Shown: positions 3,820-54,865 of the stretch, piece by piece | Layout of the letters: the number at the start of each line of letters is the position of its first letter | Position numbering within the stretch: position 1 is the stretch's first letter | NCBI GenBank assembly: GCA_019044685.2 | Contig: JAGTXX020000003.1 | Location: 186,001 to 250,000 of the forward strand | DNA: 64,000 nucleotides | Reading direction: 5' to 3' | Source: Nannochloris sp. 'desiccata' | Taxonomy: Eukaryota > Chlorophyta > Trebouxiophyceae > Chlorellales > Chlorellaceae | Position numbers and translations under genes: made by a program | Notes under the pieces: generated by a model | What the model was told of the DNA's origin: nothing | The model's input: only the letters and a program-made list of their open reading frames with translations | Database searches by the model: none

Positions 3820-6800
3820 ATGGCGGCCAAGGACGACACAACGCACCCTAAAGCGTTGAAGGCTCTTGAACAGGCTATTTCATCTGCTGCAAATGCTGCT
3901 CTACCACTTGAAGAAGATCACTATGTACGCTGTTTTTTAAATTATTACGTTTGCACAAATAATTAAATCAAAATCTTGAAATTCAAACGATTTAAAATTC
4001 TTTATTATTATTCCTGCAGTTCTACTCTAACTCATCTGAATTTAAGAATCAAATAACCGAGTTTCGGAATAAAATCCAGTCCATGCTCACTTCATTCCCA
4101 GGGGCACCTGCAGCACCTCACGGCATTTTCACGTCTGCTCCCGACGCTCACGACTGGACGGTGTCTTTGCTCGACGACACCTTGGCTCGAGTAGATGATG
4201 CATTAGCCGATGCAAAACGTGTTGCAGACCAGAAAAAGGTACTTGGAGAAGAAGCAACTCAACCTTATACTTCAGCTGTAGAAGCAGCAACAACGACACC
4301 AGCTGCCGCTGCCGGGGTGCGGGCAGTGAGGGCCCCTCCTGCAACTACGAGCAATACCAACCAAGGCTACGTTTCCTATATGCAGAGCACGTTGAAAGAA
4401 AAGCCACAAGACTCTTTTACTCCACCGATGGATAATTCCAACGCTCCATTTGTCCACAATTTGGAAAATGTAAAACATTTTCTAATACAAGAACTCGGTA
4501 ATAAGAATAATGATAACGACGGCAGCTCGATCACTACTATAGAGGACATGGGTGGAGCAATGGCAGCTGCCACAGCTGCAGGAAAACCCCCACCCCACCC
4601 TCTCCAATCTCTACTAGACAACTTAGAATACCCAGAATGGCAATTAAAGGTCCCTGAAATAGCCCATCAATATAAATCTTTTGAGGAAACCCCTTTTCAT
4701 TTCATCGACACCATCCCCGCTCTGGAAGCCCTTGCTCTAAAATTAGCTCAATCGAATGAGCTTGCTGTCGATTTAGAAGCACACAATTACCGTTCTTTCC
4801 AGGGGTTTTGTTGTTTGATGCAGCTGTCTACTCGAGAAGAGGATTTTATCATTGATGTTTTGGTTTTGAGACACCATGTCGGCCGGTGCCTCGCACCACT
4901 TTTCGCTAACCCGAGAATCGTGAAAATCTTACACGGTTCTGATGGAGATATCGTCTGGTTGCAACGTGATTTTGGGATCTATGTATGCAATTTATTCGAT
5001 ACAGGCCAAGCTGCTAGAGTTTTAGACTACGAGGGCCATGGACTTGGATATATGATGGAGCGTCTTTGTGACTTTAAGGCCGATAAACGATGGCAATTAG
5101 CAGATTGGAGATTACGGCCATTAAGTGATGAAGCTATTCATTATGCGAGGGCAGATACCCATTATTTGTTTCATTGCTATGATAAAGTAAGACAAGAGCT
5201 CGCGAGGAGAACAACAATACATGAAGGGGAAGAAGGGGAAATTGTATCTCCCCATGTAGTTGTGCCTCTTCCTGAGAAGAATCCTGGTGGTGCCTTGGGT
5301 ACTGTATTGGAACGGTCTCGTCAGATTTGTCTCCATCTTTACGAAAAAGAGCTGCTTAAAGAAGATTCGTATTTAGCGCTCTATGAGAAATTAAATAAAA
5401 ATTTCTCAGATGAACAATTATCTGTCTTTTCTGCTTTGTACAGCTGGAGAGACCGTGTTGCTCGTCAAGAAGATGAATCTTTTGGGTATATTCTGTCTAG
5501 AAATCAACTAATTGCGCTCTGTGAGTCTCTACCAATCACTGCAGCAGAGCTGAATCGGACGCTGGGAAGAGGCGCAGGGTTACTCCAAAGTAGAGCTAAA
5601 GAAGTATTATTACTAATGGCAGCAGCCAGAGAGGATACGACACGTGTAGCTGAACAGAAGAAAGCGTGGATGGAAGAGATGGCTACTAGACCAGTGCGAA
5701 GGGGAGCACGTGACAGAGGTGACAGAGGGGGTATGCTGCCAGATATGGCAGCAGCTGCAGCTGCAGCTGCTGCATCCCTGCCACCACCACCTCCACCGCC
5801 AGAAGAAGAAGCGCTTAAAGCTCCAGTGAATGAAGGTTTATTACTGAAACCAAAGGCTGTAAAGCCTTTGACTGGTGTTTCACCCTCCACTGTCGCAACT
5901 GCTTCTCTAGATGCTTGCCCAGCTGTTGACGGCTTAAAGGCTCGGAAGGTTGTTTCTTTAGGAGGTTCTAATGGAAATATAACTATGAATAACGGCCCAA
6001 AACTTGCTGTTTCGGGTGGATCTTCACTATTTGGCTCGTTATTAGCCGAGAAAAACACGAGCGATGGTGTCTTGGCTTCTGTTGCTGTTGCTGCTACCTT
6101 GGGCTACGGTGGTGTTCTTCCTCCCACAAACTTTGCATCTCAAGCTGAAGCCGAGGTAACACAGCAAGTAGAGGAAGAAACTCAAAAACACGGCCAACAA
6201 CACAGAGACCCTACTGCTGCGGAAAAGAAAAATGCAGTCAGAGCTGCAATGGCGAAACTTGCTGCTGATCAAGCAGAGGAAGATGAGAAGGAGCAAGGGG
6301 AAATACTCTCTGTAGAGAAAGAGAAAGACGATAACGACGAATTAGAAGATTTCTTGCCACTTTCTTTATCAGACAAATATAACTTGACAAAAAAGAAAAG
6401 ACGTCGACAGCAACTGCCACACGCTACCTTTGGTGGTGGTCATAATTCTGCCGGTGGTGGTGGTGGTGTAAAGAAGCAAAAAACAGTTAATGGTGGCGAA
6501 GATAGTCAGAAAGTAAAGGATACTTTAAAGCAGTTAGGCCTTGAAGGCGATGAACAGGACGGGGAGGGAGGAGTGGAAGAGGGCGGTGGAGATGCCGAAG
6601 CGGCTGCCGAAGCGGTGGTGGCGGCTCCTGTAGATTACGCTGCTGCCGCTGCAAAGTATGATATGGGTATAGTGAACCCTCATAGGCGTGGTGGGAGAGG
6701 GGGCCGTGGTGGGAGAGGGGGTAGAGGTGCACGAGGCCGAGGAGGAAGAGGTGGTGGTGGTGGTCGTGGTGGTAAAGGTAAAGGTGGAGGCGATGAGCCA

Positions 6801-6914
6801 GCCGGGATTCCTGAAGGCCGCTTTAATCCATATGCAGCACTTGATGTGACTGGTTTGAAAGGTGGGAAGCGTAGCGCTGTGCATGTACGTAGTGGAAATC
6901 GCAGCTCTCGATAG
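3820..6914 (+). CDS. EXOSC10: Exosome 3'-5' exoribonuclease RRP6 / EXOSC10
   Basis: Exon 1 (3820..3924) is joined to exon 2 (4020..6914) through a gtacgc/ctgcag phase-0 intron, giving 999 aa. The first ~65 residues form a PMC2NT-like segment (LPLEEDHY-FYSNSSEFKNQI) that in the family binds the RRP47 cofactor. The DEDD-Y nuclease has D-x-E in AVDLEAH (about residue 284), motif II in HGSDGDIVWLQRDFG and Y-x3-D in HYARADTHY (about 408). An HRDC domain (RDRVARQEDESFGYILSRNQL) follows. The C-terminal half is low complexity: poly-Ala, poly-Pro, acidic tracts and a Gly-Arg (RGG) block about residues 923-960 that probably binds RNA. It trims and degrades nuclear rRNA, snoRNA and aberrant transcripts with the exosome. 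Confidence 0.93.
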
Positions 6915-7149
6915 ATTGCAAAATTCAAATTCTTTTTACGGCTGCGATAGAGTTGGTGCGCTGCTTCTAGCCACGGAGACTTCGGCTGACTGTGCCCAGC
7001 GTTGATTTGGTTCTGTGTGCACGCATTGGTCGTTTAGACTGAATACATTGTAAAGTAGTTTAATTCTACAGAGTTAACAGCTGGTCTAAGGCACCATAGA
7101 AGGCACTTTGGCTTCGCGAATCGGAGTCAAAAATCGTTAATTTTTTAAA

Positions 7150-9120
7150 ATGTCGCCAGCAGCTTTGGATACCTGCGAAACGCAAGTTTTGCCTAGCACT
7201 CCAAAATTAGCTATTCCTCAGCTTGACAATGCCAAGGCATTAGTCCTCAAAGCGGTCGCAGACGCTGTCCCATGCCCACCTGGCCCTCTGCAAGATTACC
7301 TTGCTGAAGAAGGCCAACTGAGAAACCAAGGCACTCTTAGGTGCGTTTTAATTAATGTACATGATTTTCTACTGGTGGAATAGCATGCATTTGTGATACA
7401 TTCCTAATTAAATGAGCAAATGTGTGGATCAGCATCTTGTCGCACCACCACCGCTCAATTGCTTTATGCTATTTCAAACCGACTGAATCAAATCCCCCTT
7501 TTCTCACCCCCCCTCCCGCCCCTTCCTCTTTTTTTTAAATACAGATCTCTTGTGGGTCAATTTCAAGGTGTACCAGGCGTGGTCTCCCTCTCAGCCGGGT
7601 TCCCCCCGCCCCATATCTTCCCTTTTTCATCCATCTCCCTTCAACTCACCAACGGAACCCAAATAGCCCTTCCAGACATGACCGCGGCACAGCAGTACAA
7701 CGCGTCCCTCCGTGGCTACCCACCCCTCGTCCATTGGGCAACCAACCACGTCCAAGCTCTCCACCGCCCCCCTTCTGTACACGACATTCTAATAACCAAC
7801 GGGGCCAACCATTCATTAGAGTTAATTACATCGCTGTTTTTACAACGGGGAGATGCTCTTTTAGTTGAAGAATACACCTATCCGGTGATATTAGAATCAA
7901 TAGCAATGCCAAAGGGATACCGCACCCTCGGTGTGCCCATCGACAATTTTGGCATCATACCCTTGGGACTGGAACGTGTACTAGAAGAAGCTGCAGCTGC
8001 AGCTGCTACCCCTGGCGGACCCAAAATGCCGAAATTGTTATATACCGTCCCCACAGGGCATAATCCTACAGGATGTACTATTACCCCTGAAAGAAGAAAG
8101 CAAGTCTATGCTCTGTGCCGGAAATTCGATGTGTGGATTTTAGAGGATGATCCCTATTTTTATTTACAATGGGGCTCTGCTGCGCAATCTATGCTTGAGG
8201 CCGAGAGTATTGATCCTGAGACGGTAGAAGAAGATGCTTTACGCTCTAGTATGCCTGGTTTAAAGGGACTTTTAAGACCACCTGTATCAACTACCAACAC
8301 AACTTTATCTACTTCTTCGCCTTCCCCGTCACCGGCGACGTCTAGCTCTTCAATTCTTTCTTCCTCCTCTTCTGGCCCTGTGAGCATGAGTGGTGGTACT
8401 AATGTGAATACCTCTACTACATCCTCTATGAGTAGCTCATACTTAGCGTTAGATGTGGATTGTCGTGTCATTCGAGTAGATACCTTTTCAAAGTTCCTGG
8501 CTCCAGGGGTGAGGCTCGGATGGGTGACCGCTCGATCAGATCTGATTGAAAAATTAACTTCAGCGTTACAGACACATACAGTAGGACCCTGCTCATTAAG
8601 TCAAACTGTAGTGGCAGCAACGTTAGCTGCATGGGGTGATGCAGGGTTAGATGCCCATTTACGGCAAATACAAGCCGAGTATTCCCGACGCTGTGCTGTG
8701 CTGTGTAGGGCAGCATCAAGGGAACTTGGTAATGGATGTCTAGCAGAATGGGATGTCCCACGTGCTGGTATGTTTCTGTGGGTGAAGATTAACGGAGTAG
8801 AAGACGCAGTCGAGGTGTGGGATGCGCTACATGATGCGAAAATAATTGTGTGTCCCGGGAGAGTGATGGCGGCGGCAGCTGCCGGAGTCGGTGGAAGTTT
8901 CCGTAAAGAGGAAGACTCTCCCCATACCACTGGCAATACTACTATTAATAACTGTGCGGCAAATAAATTGAAGAGCCCCTTTGTTCGAGTAGCTTTCTCT
9001 TCTGTAGATAGCGCAGGATTGAAAGAAGGAATGAGGAGGTTCGGAAATGTGCTTAGAAAACATCACCGCGATACAAAAGCACAACAACAACAACAACAAC
9101 AAGATATGGTGGTTGTATAA
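7150..9120 (+). CDS. PLP-dependent class I/II aminotransferase, ARO8 / 2-aminoadipate type
   Basis: Exon 1 (7150..7340) and exon 2 (7545..9120) join in phase 2 (donor gtgcgt, acceptor aatacag) to give 588 aa. The fold-type I landmarks are clear: SLSAGFPPPHIFPF near the substrate gate, ITNGANHSLELI at the cofactor phosphate, VPTGHNPTGC, the LEDDPYFYLQ Asp, and the PLP-binding Lys in DTFSKFLAPGVRLGW. This set is typical of the Aro8/kynurenine/2-aminoadipate subgroup, which transaminates aromatic amino acids or aminoadipate; the exact substrate cannot be read from sequence. An ~80-residue Ser/Thr-rich insert splits the domain between the cofactor Asp/Tyr and the active Lys. The C-terminus has a short poly-Gln run. 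There is no clear targeting peptide. Confidence 0.85.
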
Positions 9121-52494: not shown

Positions 52495-52986
52495 TTTTTC
52501 TTAAAGAAAGGGCCTTCTCCAGTCTAAATCAAACAATTTATCACCAATAAAATGGTTGAGAGTCTCGTCGCGATTCAATTTTTCCGTTCATGCAAGCTAA
52601 TAAATTATTAAAACATATCGACAGGTATTTTTAATTCAAATAGTATCTGAAATCTGTTTATCCTTCTCTCCCGCTACGTTTACGAATAATATAATGGCAT
52701 CTTCCCCTTCATTGAGAGTATACAGCCTTATATATTCTTGTCTATTTTCTTTCCTTCGTCTATGTGTTCTTCACTCCTAGTGAACCCACTAATAAGTAAA
52801 TAAATAAATTCTAATAAAAAAATTATTTCTTTGATGCTTTGTGTTTGTAAATAGCACTTCCCTTCCATTGAGCTGCATTACGATCACGTGATGTAAGGAG
52901 TACTTAAAGTAGAAACAATGAAACTTTAGAATAATAGCAGCGATCACATTTATTTTTACAGAATACAAAATTTTTGTATACATGTA
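52495..52986. other. 3' flank of the secreted-protein gene up to the mobile element
   Basis: About 490 very AT-rich bases. The last five (atgta, 52982-52986) form the left half of the target duplication of the inverted-repeat element. No gene is seen. Confidence 0.5.
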
Positions 52987-53058
52987 TGTGATGATATGGC
53001 ACAGCTAGCGAGAAGCTGCCTCGTCACAGCATGCATAGCACGCCTGCGCTGCGTGAGC

Positions 53059-53188
53059 AGCTGCAAGATGGAAGGCCCAGAAAAGAAAGTGCTATGAAGC
53101 TGATAAGCTACGCCTCTTATCTAAGCTGCAAGATGGAAGGCCCAGAAAAGAAAGTGCTATGAAGCTGATAAGCTACGCCTCCTATCTA
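53059..53188. repeat. 65-bp tandem duplication in the left arm
   Basis: Copies 53059-53123 and 53124-53188 are nearly identical (one clear T/C difference). The right arm has only one copy, so the duplication is younger than the element. Confidence 0.9.
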
Positions 53189-53469
53189 CTTCTAGACAAC
53201 AATTTGAGTTCTGTTATTTTCTTTGTTAAAGACTAGAGACCAGCAGCGGCTGTCTCTAAAAAAGGCAGCCCACCCACCTACTCCCTCTTACCCCTTCATT
53301 TCCTGCAATTATTTAACAGGAGGTATCTAATCTGAGTTCTAAATGAGAAAATAATATCATTAGAGCTCAGAAAACAGCAATCTCGCCAAACAAGTGAAGG
53401 CTGGTCTCAGTCAAAGTCAATTTGTACCGCTGAGGTACAGCCCACTGGGCATTCCAACAATACTATAAA

Positions 53470-53957
53470 ATGCACTTACCCTCACTTCCCACAATTGCTG
53501 GATTATGCAGCAAGTTTCGGTGCGTAGGTGTCTAGAGACACTGGTTGAATTGCCTATTTGTGATATGGACCGAGATCTCTACCTAAAATTATTAAAACAT
53601 TTGACAGAGACAACAAGATGTTGAGGAGGCTCACCTGAATTTTTTTTGAAAGCCAAAGAAAAGAGAGGTTGTTAGTTCATCCCAAGTGAGAGTTCGGCAG
53701 AAACTCTCGGTCCAATAAGATTTCAGGTGAGCAGCGTTGGGCTAAAGAGCGAGGGAGGCAAAATTATCAGCGGATCCTGAAGAAGAAAGGCTGGAGAAGA
53801 AGAATTGATTGATTGATTGGTGGTTAGAAGAAGAAGGAAAACGGAAAAAAGTTAGTGACTGAGCATCTAGATCAAAAAATATAAATAAAACAGTGTAAAG
53901 CAGACTAGAAACTACGTATATTAGTTTAAAAGAATAGCACTATAGAGAGTTTGAGAA
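53470..53957. mobile_element. 488-bp insertion inside the left arm, flanked by 8-bp direct repeat
   Basis: The sequence ACTATAAA occurs at 53462-53469 and again at 53958-53965, bracketing 488 bases that are absent from the right arm. The right arm has the empty site with one ACTATAAA copy. An 8-bp target duplication is typical of hAT or P-type transposons. I see no terminal inverted repeat at its ends (atgcacttac ... gtttgagaa). It contains a small internal palindrome (GCTCACCTGAA near 53630 and TTCAGGTGAGC near 53723) and no coding frame. Confidence 0.75.
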
Positions 53958-54059
53958 ACTATAAAGAACACCTTTTGCATTCTGTAGATTAACTTTGATT
54001 ACCTAGATTTTGTGGAAACTGTCACTAAAGCACTAGATTTACTCAGATATTAGTAATGG

Positions 54060-54080
54060 CACCCAAGGCGCGGCTAGAAT
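54060..54080 (+). other. Primer-binding-site-like sequence at the inner end of the left arm
   Basis: Just after the arm ends (...TTAGTAA) comes TGGCACCCAAGGCGCGGC. Retroelement primer sites begin TGG and are complementary to a tRNA 3' end (CCA). This resembles the TGGCGCCC type but no tRNA match was tested. Confidence 0.35.
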
Positions 54081-54212
54081 CTCCTTGCTCGCTCTCCTAT
54101 TAGAGTCTACCGGTGTTAAGCAAGCCTAGGAACCGGTGTTTTGCTGTTCTTAGTGAAATATCAAACTCCAAGGTTGTTTAGCTGAGCCTTGTTAACGAAT
54201 TACTAATCCAAG

Positions 54213-54347
54213 ATGAACGAAGAGCAGATTTTGGCAATGCAACAAGAAAATGCGAATTTGCAAAACACAGTACAGCAAATGCAAGCGCAGGTTCTTGCTA
54301 TGCAACAACAACAGCCACGACAGCTGGCCATTATTACTAATATCTGA
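54213..54347 (+). pseudogene. Truncated gag-like coiled-coil ORF in the element's spacer
   Basis: A 44-codon frame begins MNEEQILAMQQENANLQ and is Gln-rich with leucine spacing of a coiled coil. It runs into the right arm and stops there, so the 3' part of the original gene is missing. Its place downstream of the left arm and the PBS-like site is where an LTR retrotransposon gag would start. Identity as gag is inference. Confidence 0.4.
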
Positions 54348-54865
54348 GTAAATCTAGTGCTTTAGTTAGAGTTTCCACAAAATCTAGGTAATCAAAGTTA
54401 ATCTACAGAATGCAAAAGGTGTTCTTTATAGTAGTTGTTGGAATGCCCAGTGGGCTGTACCTCAGCGGTACAGATTGACTTTGACTGAGACCAACCTTCA
54501 CTTGTTTGGCGAAATTACTGTTTTTCTGAGCTCTATTGATATTATTTTCTCATCTACAACTCAGATTAGATCCCTCCACTATTGAATAAGTGCAGGAAAT
54601 GAAAAGGTAAGAGGGAGTTGGTGGGTGGGCTGCTTTTTTGGAGACAGCCGCTGCTGGTCTCTCGTCTTTAGAAAAGTATATAATAGAGCTTATATCTTGT
54701 TTAGAAGTAGAGAGGAGGTGCAGCTTACCCAGCTGCATAGCACTTTCTTTTCTGGGCCTTCCATCTATCAGCTTCACGCAGCGCAGGCGTGCTATGCATG
54801 CTGTGACGAGGCAGCTTCTCGCTAGCTGTGCCATATCATCACAATGTACATACTTCTTATCTAGG

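Follow-up and report, generated by a model that had tools for sequence, protein, structure and literature searches.

Reverse transcription of retroviruses yields by-products with inverted LTRs, in the form of palindromic or self-integrated cDNA (autointegration products), and palindromic retroviral cDNA is known mainly as unintegrated DNA. Inverted LTRs are also the normal form of DIRS-1, a retrotransposon family that uses a tyrosine recombinase, according to the part of PMC5633606 drawn on here. Ginger2/Tdd elements, as the part of PMC2836005 concerned with them describes, are DNA transposons with a transposase gene, a gypsy-like integrase and TGT...ACA tips, and TDD-4 and TDD-5 generate a 5-bp duplication.

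Here we describe an insertion with inverted LTRs in the green alga Nannochloris sp. 'desiccata' (genome of 21.6 Mb in 18 contigs). It lies in a stretch of 64,000 nucleotides from contig C3 (the window, at its full length). Very probably it is an aberrant insertion of a Ty3/gypsy family, named family A here, in which a cDNA of the order LTR(+)-leader-gag-LTR(-) was integrated by integrase through its two U3 ends, making the ATGTA duplication. The observations behind this reading are the two LTRs with U3 outward, the single-copy leader, the target duplication, the variants common to both arms and a second case elsewhere with a duplication of its own.

Structure of the insertion

The insertion occupies positions 52987-54843 of the window and has ATGTA at each side (Table 1). 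An earlier note on this DNA had reported tips of the form TGTGATG...CATCACA on inverted arms and the 5-bp duplication; both are present as described, the tips reading TGTGATGATATGG and CCATATCATCACA. By simple arithmetic, the chance of finding the same 5 bp exactly where they are predicted is 1/1024. The two flanks do not mirror each other, unlike those of a large inverted duplication on contig C15 (see below), and the whole palindrome occurred once in genome searches.

The arms, put at ~515 bp by the earlier note, need some correction. The right arm is indeed continuous (54333-54843), while the left arm is split by a 65-bp duplication and a 488-bp repeat. The inverted correspondence comes in blocks, of which those with a length of at least 56 nt are 70 nt (100%), 100 nt (98%), 90 nt (96%), 56 nt (93%), 61 nt (89%) and 63 nt (84%); that they are in register cannot be due to chance. 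Nor are the arms pure LTR: they contain two SINE-like repeats, which the earlier note had overlooked. Their likeness is uneven: the LTR-derived parts are 98 to 100% alike (100% over 70 nt and 98% over 100 nt), and the ~338-bp middle, made up of repeat B, ~88 to 89%.

Table 1. Features of the palindromic insertion, with positions counted from the start of the window
Feature	Position	Strand	Basis
Target-site duplication, left copy (ATGTA)	52982..52986	.	Sequence comparison
Left LTR, U3 part, family A (TGTGATG...)	52987..53058	+	~96% to eight other family-A LTRs, of which seven reach the TG end; first 70 nt (52987-53056) fully complementary to right arm (54774-54843)
SINE-like repeat B, subfamily 1, antisense to LTR	53059..53460	-	Repeat comparison
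65-bp tandem duplication, 3' end of left repeat B (53059-53123 / 53124-53188)	53059..53188	-	Self-comparison
ACTATAAA, left copy of direct repeat around repeat C, LTR sequence	53462..53469	+	Read from sequence
SINE-like repeat C (488 bp), nested in left arm	53470..53957	+	36 genome matches, itself included
Remaining left LTR (TATA region, R, U5)	53958..54056	+	Starts with right copy of ACTATAAA (53958-53965); U5 end lacks family-A terminal ATCATCACA
Single-copy centre: putative primer-binding site TGGCACCC..., 5' leader, gag codons 1-39 (gag ATG at 54213)	54057..54331	+	~96% to four other family-A copies
Putative strand-switch junction, gag ...GGCCAT joined to inverted U5	54326..54345	+	5-nt microhomology (GCCAT) plus extra TTA
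Right LTR, inverted U5-R-TATA part	54334..54434	-	54333-54432 98% complementary to 53958-54057
SINE-like repeat B, subfamily 2, antisense to inverted LTR	54435..54773	+	96-97% to L012-L014; ~89% to left-arm B
Right LTR, U3 part, ending CATCACA	54774..54843	-	All 70 nt complementary to 52987-53056
Target-site duplication, right copy (ATGTA)	54844..54848	.	Sequence comparison

An Rfam scan (gathering threshold) and a bacterial-code tRNA scan of the window returned nothing, as did a PDB search with a neighboring ORF.

Family A and the repeats within the arms

The arms recur elsewhere in part. Their outer 72 bp match eight other places in the genome, all of them LTRs of one family (family A), and their middle matches a dispersed repeat. 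The family-A LTR is ~195 bp long (TGTGATGAT...ATCATCACA). At L032, two such LTRs lie in direct orientation ~5 kb apart; the 181 bp that they have in common are identical, the 5' LTR lacking its first bases. Two long ORFs of L032 have matches to gag, protease, RT, RNase H, integrase (rve core), a Tf2-1-like SH3 domain and a chromodomain. The arm ends thus recur as direct LTRs around gag-pol, one of the two arrangements that the earlier note had foreseen. The LTRs of the window element are homologous to those of a gag-pol element with the order RT-RNase H-integrase, and this family-A parent is an ordinary Ty3/gypsy chromovirus.

Four of the eight family-A LTRs are followed by TTT, the primer site TGGCACCC, the leader and gag. 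The window element has the same succession of primer-binding site (putative as to its tRNA), leader and gag next to its left LTR, with TGGCACCC directly adjoining the LTR and without the TTT that precedes it in those four copies. Because the centre holds a single leader and gag start, the element must be read in the order LTR(+), primer site, leader, 39 gag codons, LTR(-), with U3 outward on both sides. Direct LTR orientation, a trait of Ty3/gypsy elements, is absent here, and since the right LTR is inverted the window element is a derivative product rather than a standard member of that group. Short target duplications of fixed length were found here (ATGTA) and in family D (CTGAT, GGGCA). 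No matching pair of 5-bp flanks was seen at the eight other family-A LTRs. When the flanks of L032 were compared with a repeat, the 3' flank matched five uninterrupted copies and the 5' flank did not.

Both arms carry three U3 variants that are absent from the eight other family-A LTRs (L028 lacks a base at one site). They also have a common U5, which in the alignment is unlike that of all eight; a 27-base piece of it was found only in the two arms when the genome was searched with up to three mismatches. As these variants and this U5 are common to both arms and missing from the eight other LTRs, one template must have given rise to both. If the parent RNA also lacked the ATCATCACA tip, insertion by two U3 ends may have been its sole route.

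Repeat B, located in both arms between U3 and the TATA region and antisense to the LTR, is absent from all eight other family-A LTRs. It is a dispersed repeat of ~340 bp with 27 genome matches, itself included, and at least two subfamilies. At nearly all sites that separate subfamily 1 (L009, L010) from subfamily 2 (L012-L014), the left copy follows subfamily 1 and the right copy subfamily 2, although neither has a 6-nt insertion that belongs to subfamily 2. The two copies occupy the homologous place in each arm, their edges differing by 1-2 nt, and direct repeats were found around neither. Since the LTR parts stem from one template, either at least one repeat B was exchanged (gene conversion by a copy elsewhere would be an example) or both arrived later. 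The presence of two subfamilies at the same place in both arms is left unexplained by the palindrome.

For repeat B, SINE-like is a weak label. Some of its copies are partial or chimeric (L017-L019 match the first ~140 bp and continue with a different tail), and imperfect direct repeats of 9-12 bp occur at two sites, namely the flank common to L006-L008 and that of L015; at the other copies inspected by eye no clear ones were seen. Repeat B begins with TGTTGGAATG and had been considered as a copia-type LTR, a candidate that was dropped because the partial and chimeric copies and the imperfect direct repeats favor a SINE-like repeat. The 5' end of repeat C hardly varies (ATGCACTTACCC), its 3' ends are variable, and direct repeats of ~8-12 bp, judged by eye, are present at about 7 of the 22 copies compared. 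In the left arm it has ACTATAAA at both sides. Repeat C and the 65-bp duplication would be later additions to that arm.

U3-out palindromes elsewhere in the genome

A pol search found three further families (D, E and F), and neighboring LTR matches of families A, D, E and F lying less than 10 kb apart were paired. The matches of D (25), E (35) and F (18) were used whole. Family A entered with 10 of its 18 rows, i.e., the eight other LTRs and the two outer arms; the rows left out were two from inner LTR parts of the window element, a weak match and five that match only a repeat flanking L023. The lists of LTR matches being lower bounds, this gave at least 41 pairs (35 direct, 4 U3-out and 2 U5-out), which are neighbors and not always the two ends of one element. 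The U3-out pairs are the window element, a pair within a giant inverted duplication on contig C15, and two new ones.

One of the new pairs belongs to sister family D. This palindrome of 647 bp (C1:244715-245361, which is L083:816-1462) has the structure LTR(+)-leader/gag-LTR(-), with inverted LTRs of 226 bp and, in the 195 bp between them, the family-D leader and gag start once. GGGCA is duplicated on both sides, and the flanks are not palindromic. A family-D element with direct LTRs likewise has a 5-bp duplication, CTGAT. The two LTRs of the C1 palindrome differ at one site, and they have three variants in common that are absent from 10 rows representing 9 other places. One shorter row was dropped from this comparison and the remaining family-D matches, some at 98 to 99% identity, were left out of it, so that the three variants may not be private to the palindrome. 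A second, independent palindrome in a sister family suggests that the event can recur.

The other new pair, from an F-like family (C9:401091-402080, which is L087:792-1781), has arms of ~430 bp that are 98% alike and consist of LTR, leader and gag start; their outer ends coincide exactly with the TG/CA tips of the LTR (TGTTGCAG and CTGCAACA). A 5-bp target duplication was looked for and is absent at L087 (GCGGC versus AGTTT). We regard L087 as a third case, weaker than those in the window and on C1.

Two candidates were rejected. The head-to-head family-D pair at C15:625188-633997 was set aside because its flanks are mirrored to ~130 kb on each side. Around the center of this inverted duplication at ~629,597 (L072, L074-L081), four mirrored pairs of 501-base probes match over 419 to 491 bases at 98.9 to 100%, and the mirror axis falls inside a family-D retrotransposon. 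The duplication is either a fold-back or haplotype misassembly or a real palindrome. The second candidate, on C10 (L085:5384-6088 and 6448-7152), is a 705-bp inverted repeat at 99.9% identity that contains the 3' end of pol from a chromovirus, surrounding a piece of RT. Its outer ends are pol sequence rather than U3, and it is a rearranged retroelement copy of a different type.

Other LTR arrangements were also noticed. The two U5-out pairs of the scan lie at C8:13516/23143 and C1:1044907/1047018, and another lies at C8:170093/171495; the one on C1 (C1:1044907-1047152, L088), near the contig end, consists of F-family LTRs 1.9 kb apart. Twice on C8 a family-E LTR abuts the U3 end of a family-A LTR (C8:45090/45091 and C8:214058/214062, with 0 and 3 bases between them); the two LTRs have the same orientation at one of these places and opposite orientations at the other. 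Many of the at least 35 family-E LTR matches are near contig ends (C2, C3, C5, C6, C8, C11, C14, C16), some in tandem, and others are inside C8 (45-405 kb); most are 99 to 100% identical. This suggests recent activity of family E and perhaps a preference for chromosome ends.

Origin of the palindrome and comparison with known systems

Plus-strand DNA of LTR elements begins at the U3 tip, and in vitro integrase can pair like ends (U3/U3). A palindromic LTR retrotransposon integrated by two U3 ends was one of two readings offered by the earlier note, and it is supported: wherever else the arm ends were found, they are ordinary LTRs belonging to a gag-pol element, the spacer is the leader and gag start of that element, and a sister family has a second case with its own 5-bp duplication. 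If the insertion is of this kind, its cDNA probably, though not securely, arose by a strand switch during reverse transcription. We infer both a switch guided by microhomology and the use of integrase. The growing plus-sense DNA (U3-R-U5-primer site-leader-gag) would leave its template 275 nt past the LTR, resume at the LTR/primer-site boundary of a plus-sense strand and copy the LTR back to the U3 tip; integrase would then insert the cDNA through its two U3 ends, giving the 5-bp ATGTA duplication. A plus strand that starts at the U3 tip and is copied back after a switch would have exact U3 ends at both tips, as is seen in all three cases. A strand that snapped back on itself would become a hairpin open at one end, which calls for a further step; switching to a second plus strand would require no extra step.

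The junctions bear on this proposal. In the window, gag meets the inverted LTR/primer-site boundary (reverse complement ...GCCATTACTAAT) to form GCCATTATTACTAAT. In the family-D case, the inverted LTR retains TTTT past ACA and is followed by one more base and then gag, with little microhomology. In L087, the gag strands meet at TTCAA, and three bases of an A run are missing. The switch would thus have taken place at the LTR/primer-site boundary in the window and D cases and within gag in L087. The single-copy centers measure 275 nt in the window, ~189 nt in D and ~130 nt in L087.

The same palindromic insertion could have formed by end joining, a possible route that we think rather unlikely and whose probability is contained in that given above to palindromic insertion as a whole. 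In this case a cDNA with a broken or unfinished end in gag would have been joined there to a second cDNA whose U5 end was still unprocessed, and the joined molecule would have been integrated through its two U3 ends. The TTTT of the inverted D LTR, taken as the 3-nt spacer plus one primer-site base, fits an unprocessed U5 end with an extra base after it, and the window junction also allows a reading in which the U5 end is followed by a single primer-site base, an extra base and gag. Yet 5-nt microhomology with a small slip, present in the window (GCCAT) and in L087 (TTCAA), is more typical of strand switching, and three centers that are all short (~130-275 nt) are not predicted by random breakage of a 5-kb cDNA. 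End joining may apply chiefly to the D case.

A normal insertion that afterwards underwent an in-place inversion of its 3' LTR and lost most of its interior is very unlikely. Large inverted duplications do occur in the assembly (contig C15), but the break would have had to fall exactly at the LTR tip, leaving the duplication intact, and to do so again in family D with another duplication. The C1 case strongly disfavors such a history. The fold-back that may have produced the C15 duplication likewise lends something to the idea of an assembly artefact, which we take, together with that of two independent solo LTRs in opposite orientation, to be highly improbable. The common variants, the single-copy leader between the arms and the identical duplications at both tips speak against either; moreover, the arms differ (repeats B and C, the 65-bp duplication) and the flanks are not mirrored, unlike those on C15.

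The other reading of the earlier note, a non-autonomous DNA transposon of the Ginger/Tdd type, here with long terminal inverted repeats, is scarcely credible. TGT...ACA tips with a 5-bp duplication are found in TDD-4 and TDD-5, but Ginger1 makes 4-bp duplications (CCGG or CCGT) and Ginger2 other than TDD-4/5 makes 4-bp ones, as the relevant part of PMC2836005 reports. The arm ends and interior belong to an LTR retrotransposon, being its LTR, primer site and gag leader; non-LTR terminal inverted repeats around a transposase gene, which would mark a Ginger/Tdd element, are not what was found, and the whole palindrome occurs once in the genome. A DIRS-like retrotransposon, with inverted terminal repeats by design, has next to no probability: inverted LTRs do surround retroelement sequence as in DIRS-1 (in the part of PMC5633606 drawn on), but the parent has direct LTRs and a DDE integrase (rve core) instead of a tyrosine recombinase, and the window element has a 5-bp duplication.

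Palindromic cDNA remains our preferred explanation. Counting against it are the two repeat B subfamilies, the missing duplication at L087, the scarce microhomology of the D junction and the lack of a confirmed duplication at any other family-A insertion.

RNA of positions 53957-54432 folds to -234.7 kcal/mol, compared with -107.3 (SD, 6.8) for shuffled sequences, 0 of 100 of which were as low. The low energy results from the inverted arms and does not imply function. In each palindrome, two putative LTR promoters would face each other around a hairpin-forming leader. Mu killer of maize, an inverted duplication of part of a mobile element, silences the family of that element, as the part of PMC3440606 drawn on here describes. 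The window element is likewise an inverted duplication, from which hairpin RNA is possible in principle; silencing is the feature of Mu killer. A Piwi domain is encoded at C11:123501-124418. It is conceivable, though doubtful, that U3-out palindromes are a recurrent insertion class and at the same time Mu killer-like loci, whose double-stranded RNA would silence the parent family via Argonaute. Such palindromes would supply hairpin RNA and would be one way for the silencing of a retrotransposon family to start in a genome.

To speak of an undescribed mobile element, as the earlier note did, was an overstatement: each palindrome turned up a single time in the searches and is a by-product of Ty3/gypsy-type elements. 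What sets the product apart from a standard element is a single defining feature, the orientation of its LTRs; its novelty is unproven. Among the listed titles and abstract openings in the open-licence literature, we found no report of an integrated U3-U3 palindrome; the term "palindromic LTR" occurs there in papers on HIV, foamy virus and LTR finders. The second case with its own target duplication raises the finding above a mere curiosity. Target duplications in two families indicate that integrase can complete an insertion from two U3 ends in nature, and a cDNA with its U5 end missing or buried is then not necessarily lost. The palindromes also mark positions at which reverse transcriptase may switch strands. 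Software that searches for direct LTRs would overlook them, and they may be misfiled as DNA transposons.

Compared with Ginger2/Tdd elements, as far as the source cited above describes them, the window element has like tips but a primer site and gag in place of a transposase gene. Inverted LTRs are common to it and DIRS-1, which, in the account cited above, uses a tyrosine recombinase. Ty3/gypsy chromoviruses with Tf2-like domains, such as L032, resemble it in LTR, primer site, leader, gag start and TGT...ACA tips, and their 5-bp duplication is seen in sister family D; the window element departs from them in its inverted second LTR, the absence of pol, U3 at both tips and a U5 without the terminal ATCATCACA. 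With palindromic retroviral cDNA it has the inverted LTRs in common, and it differs in being integrated, with a target duplication.
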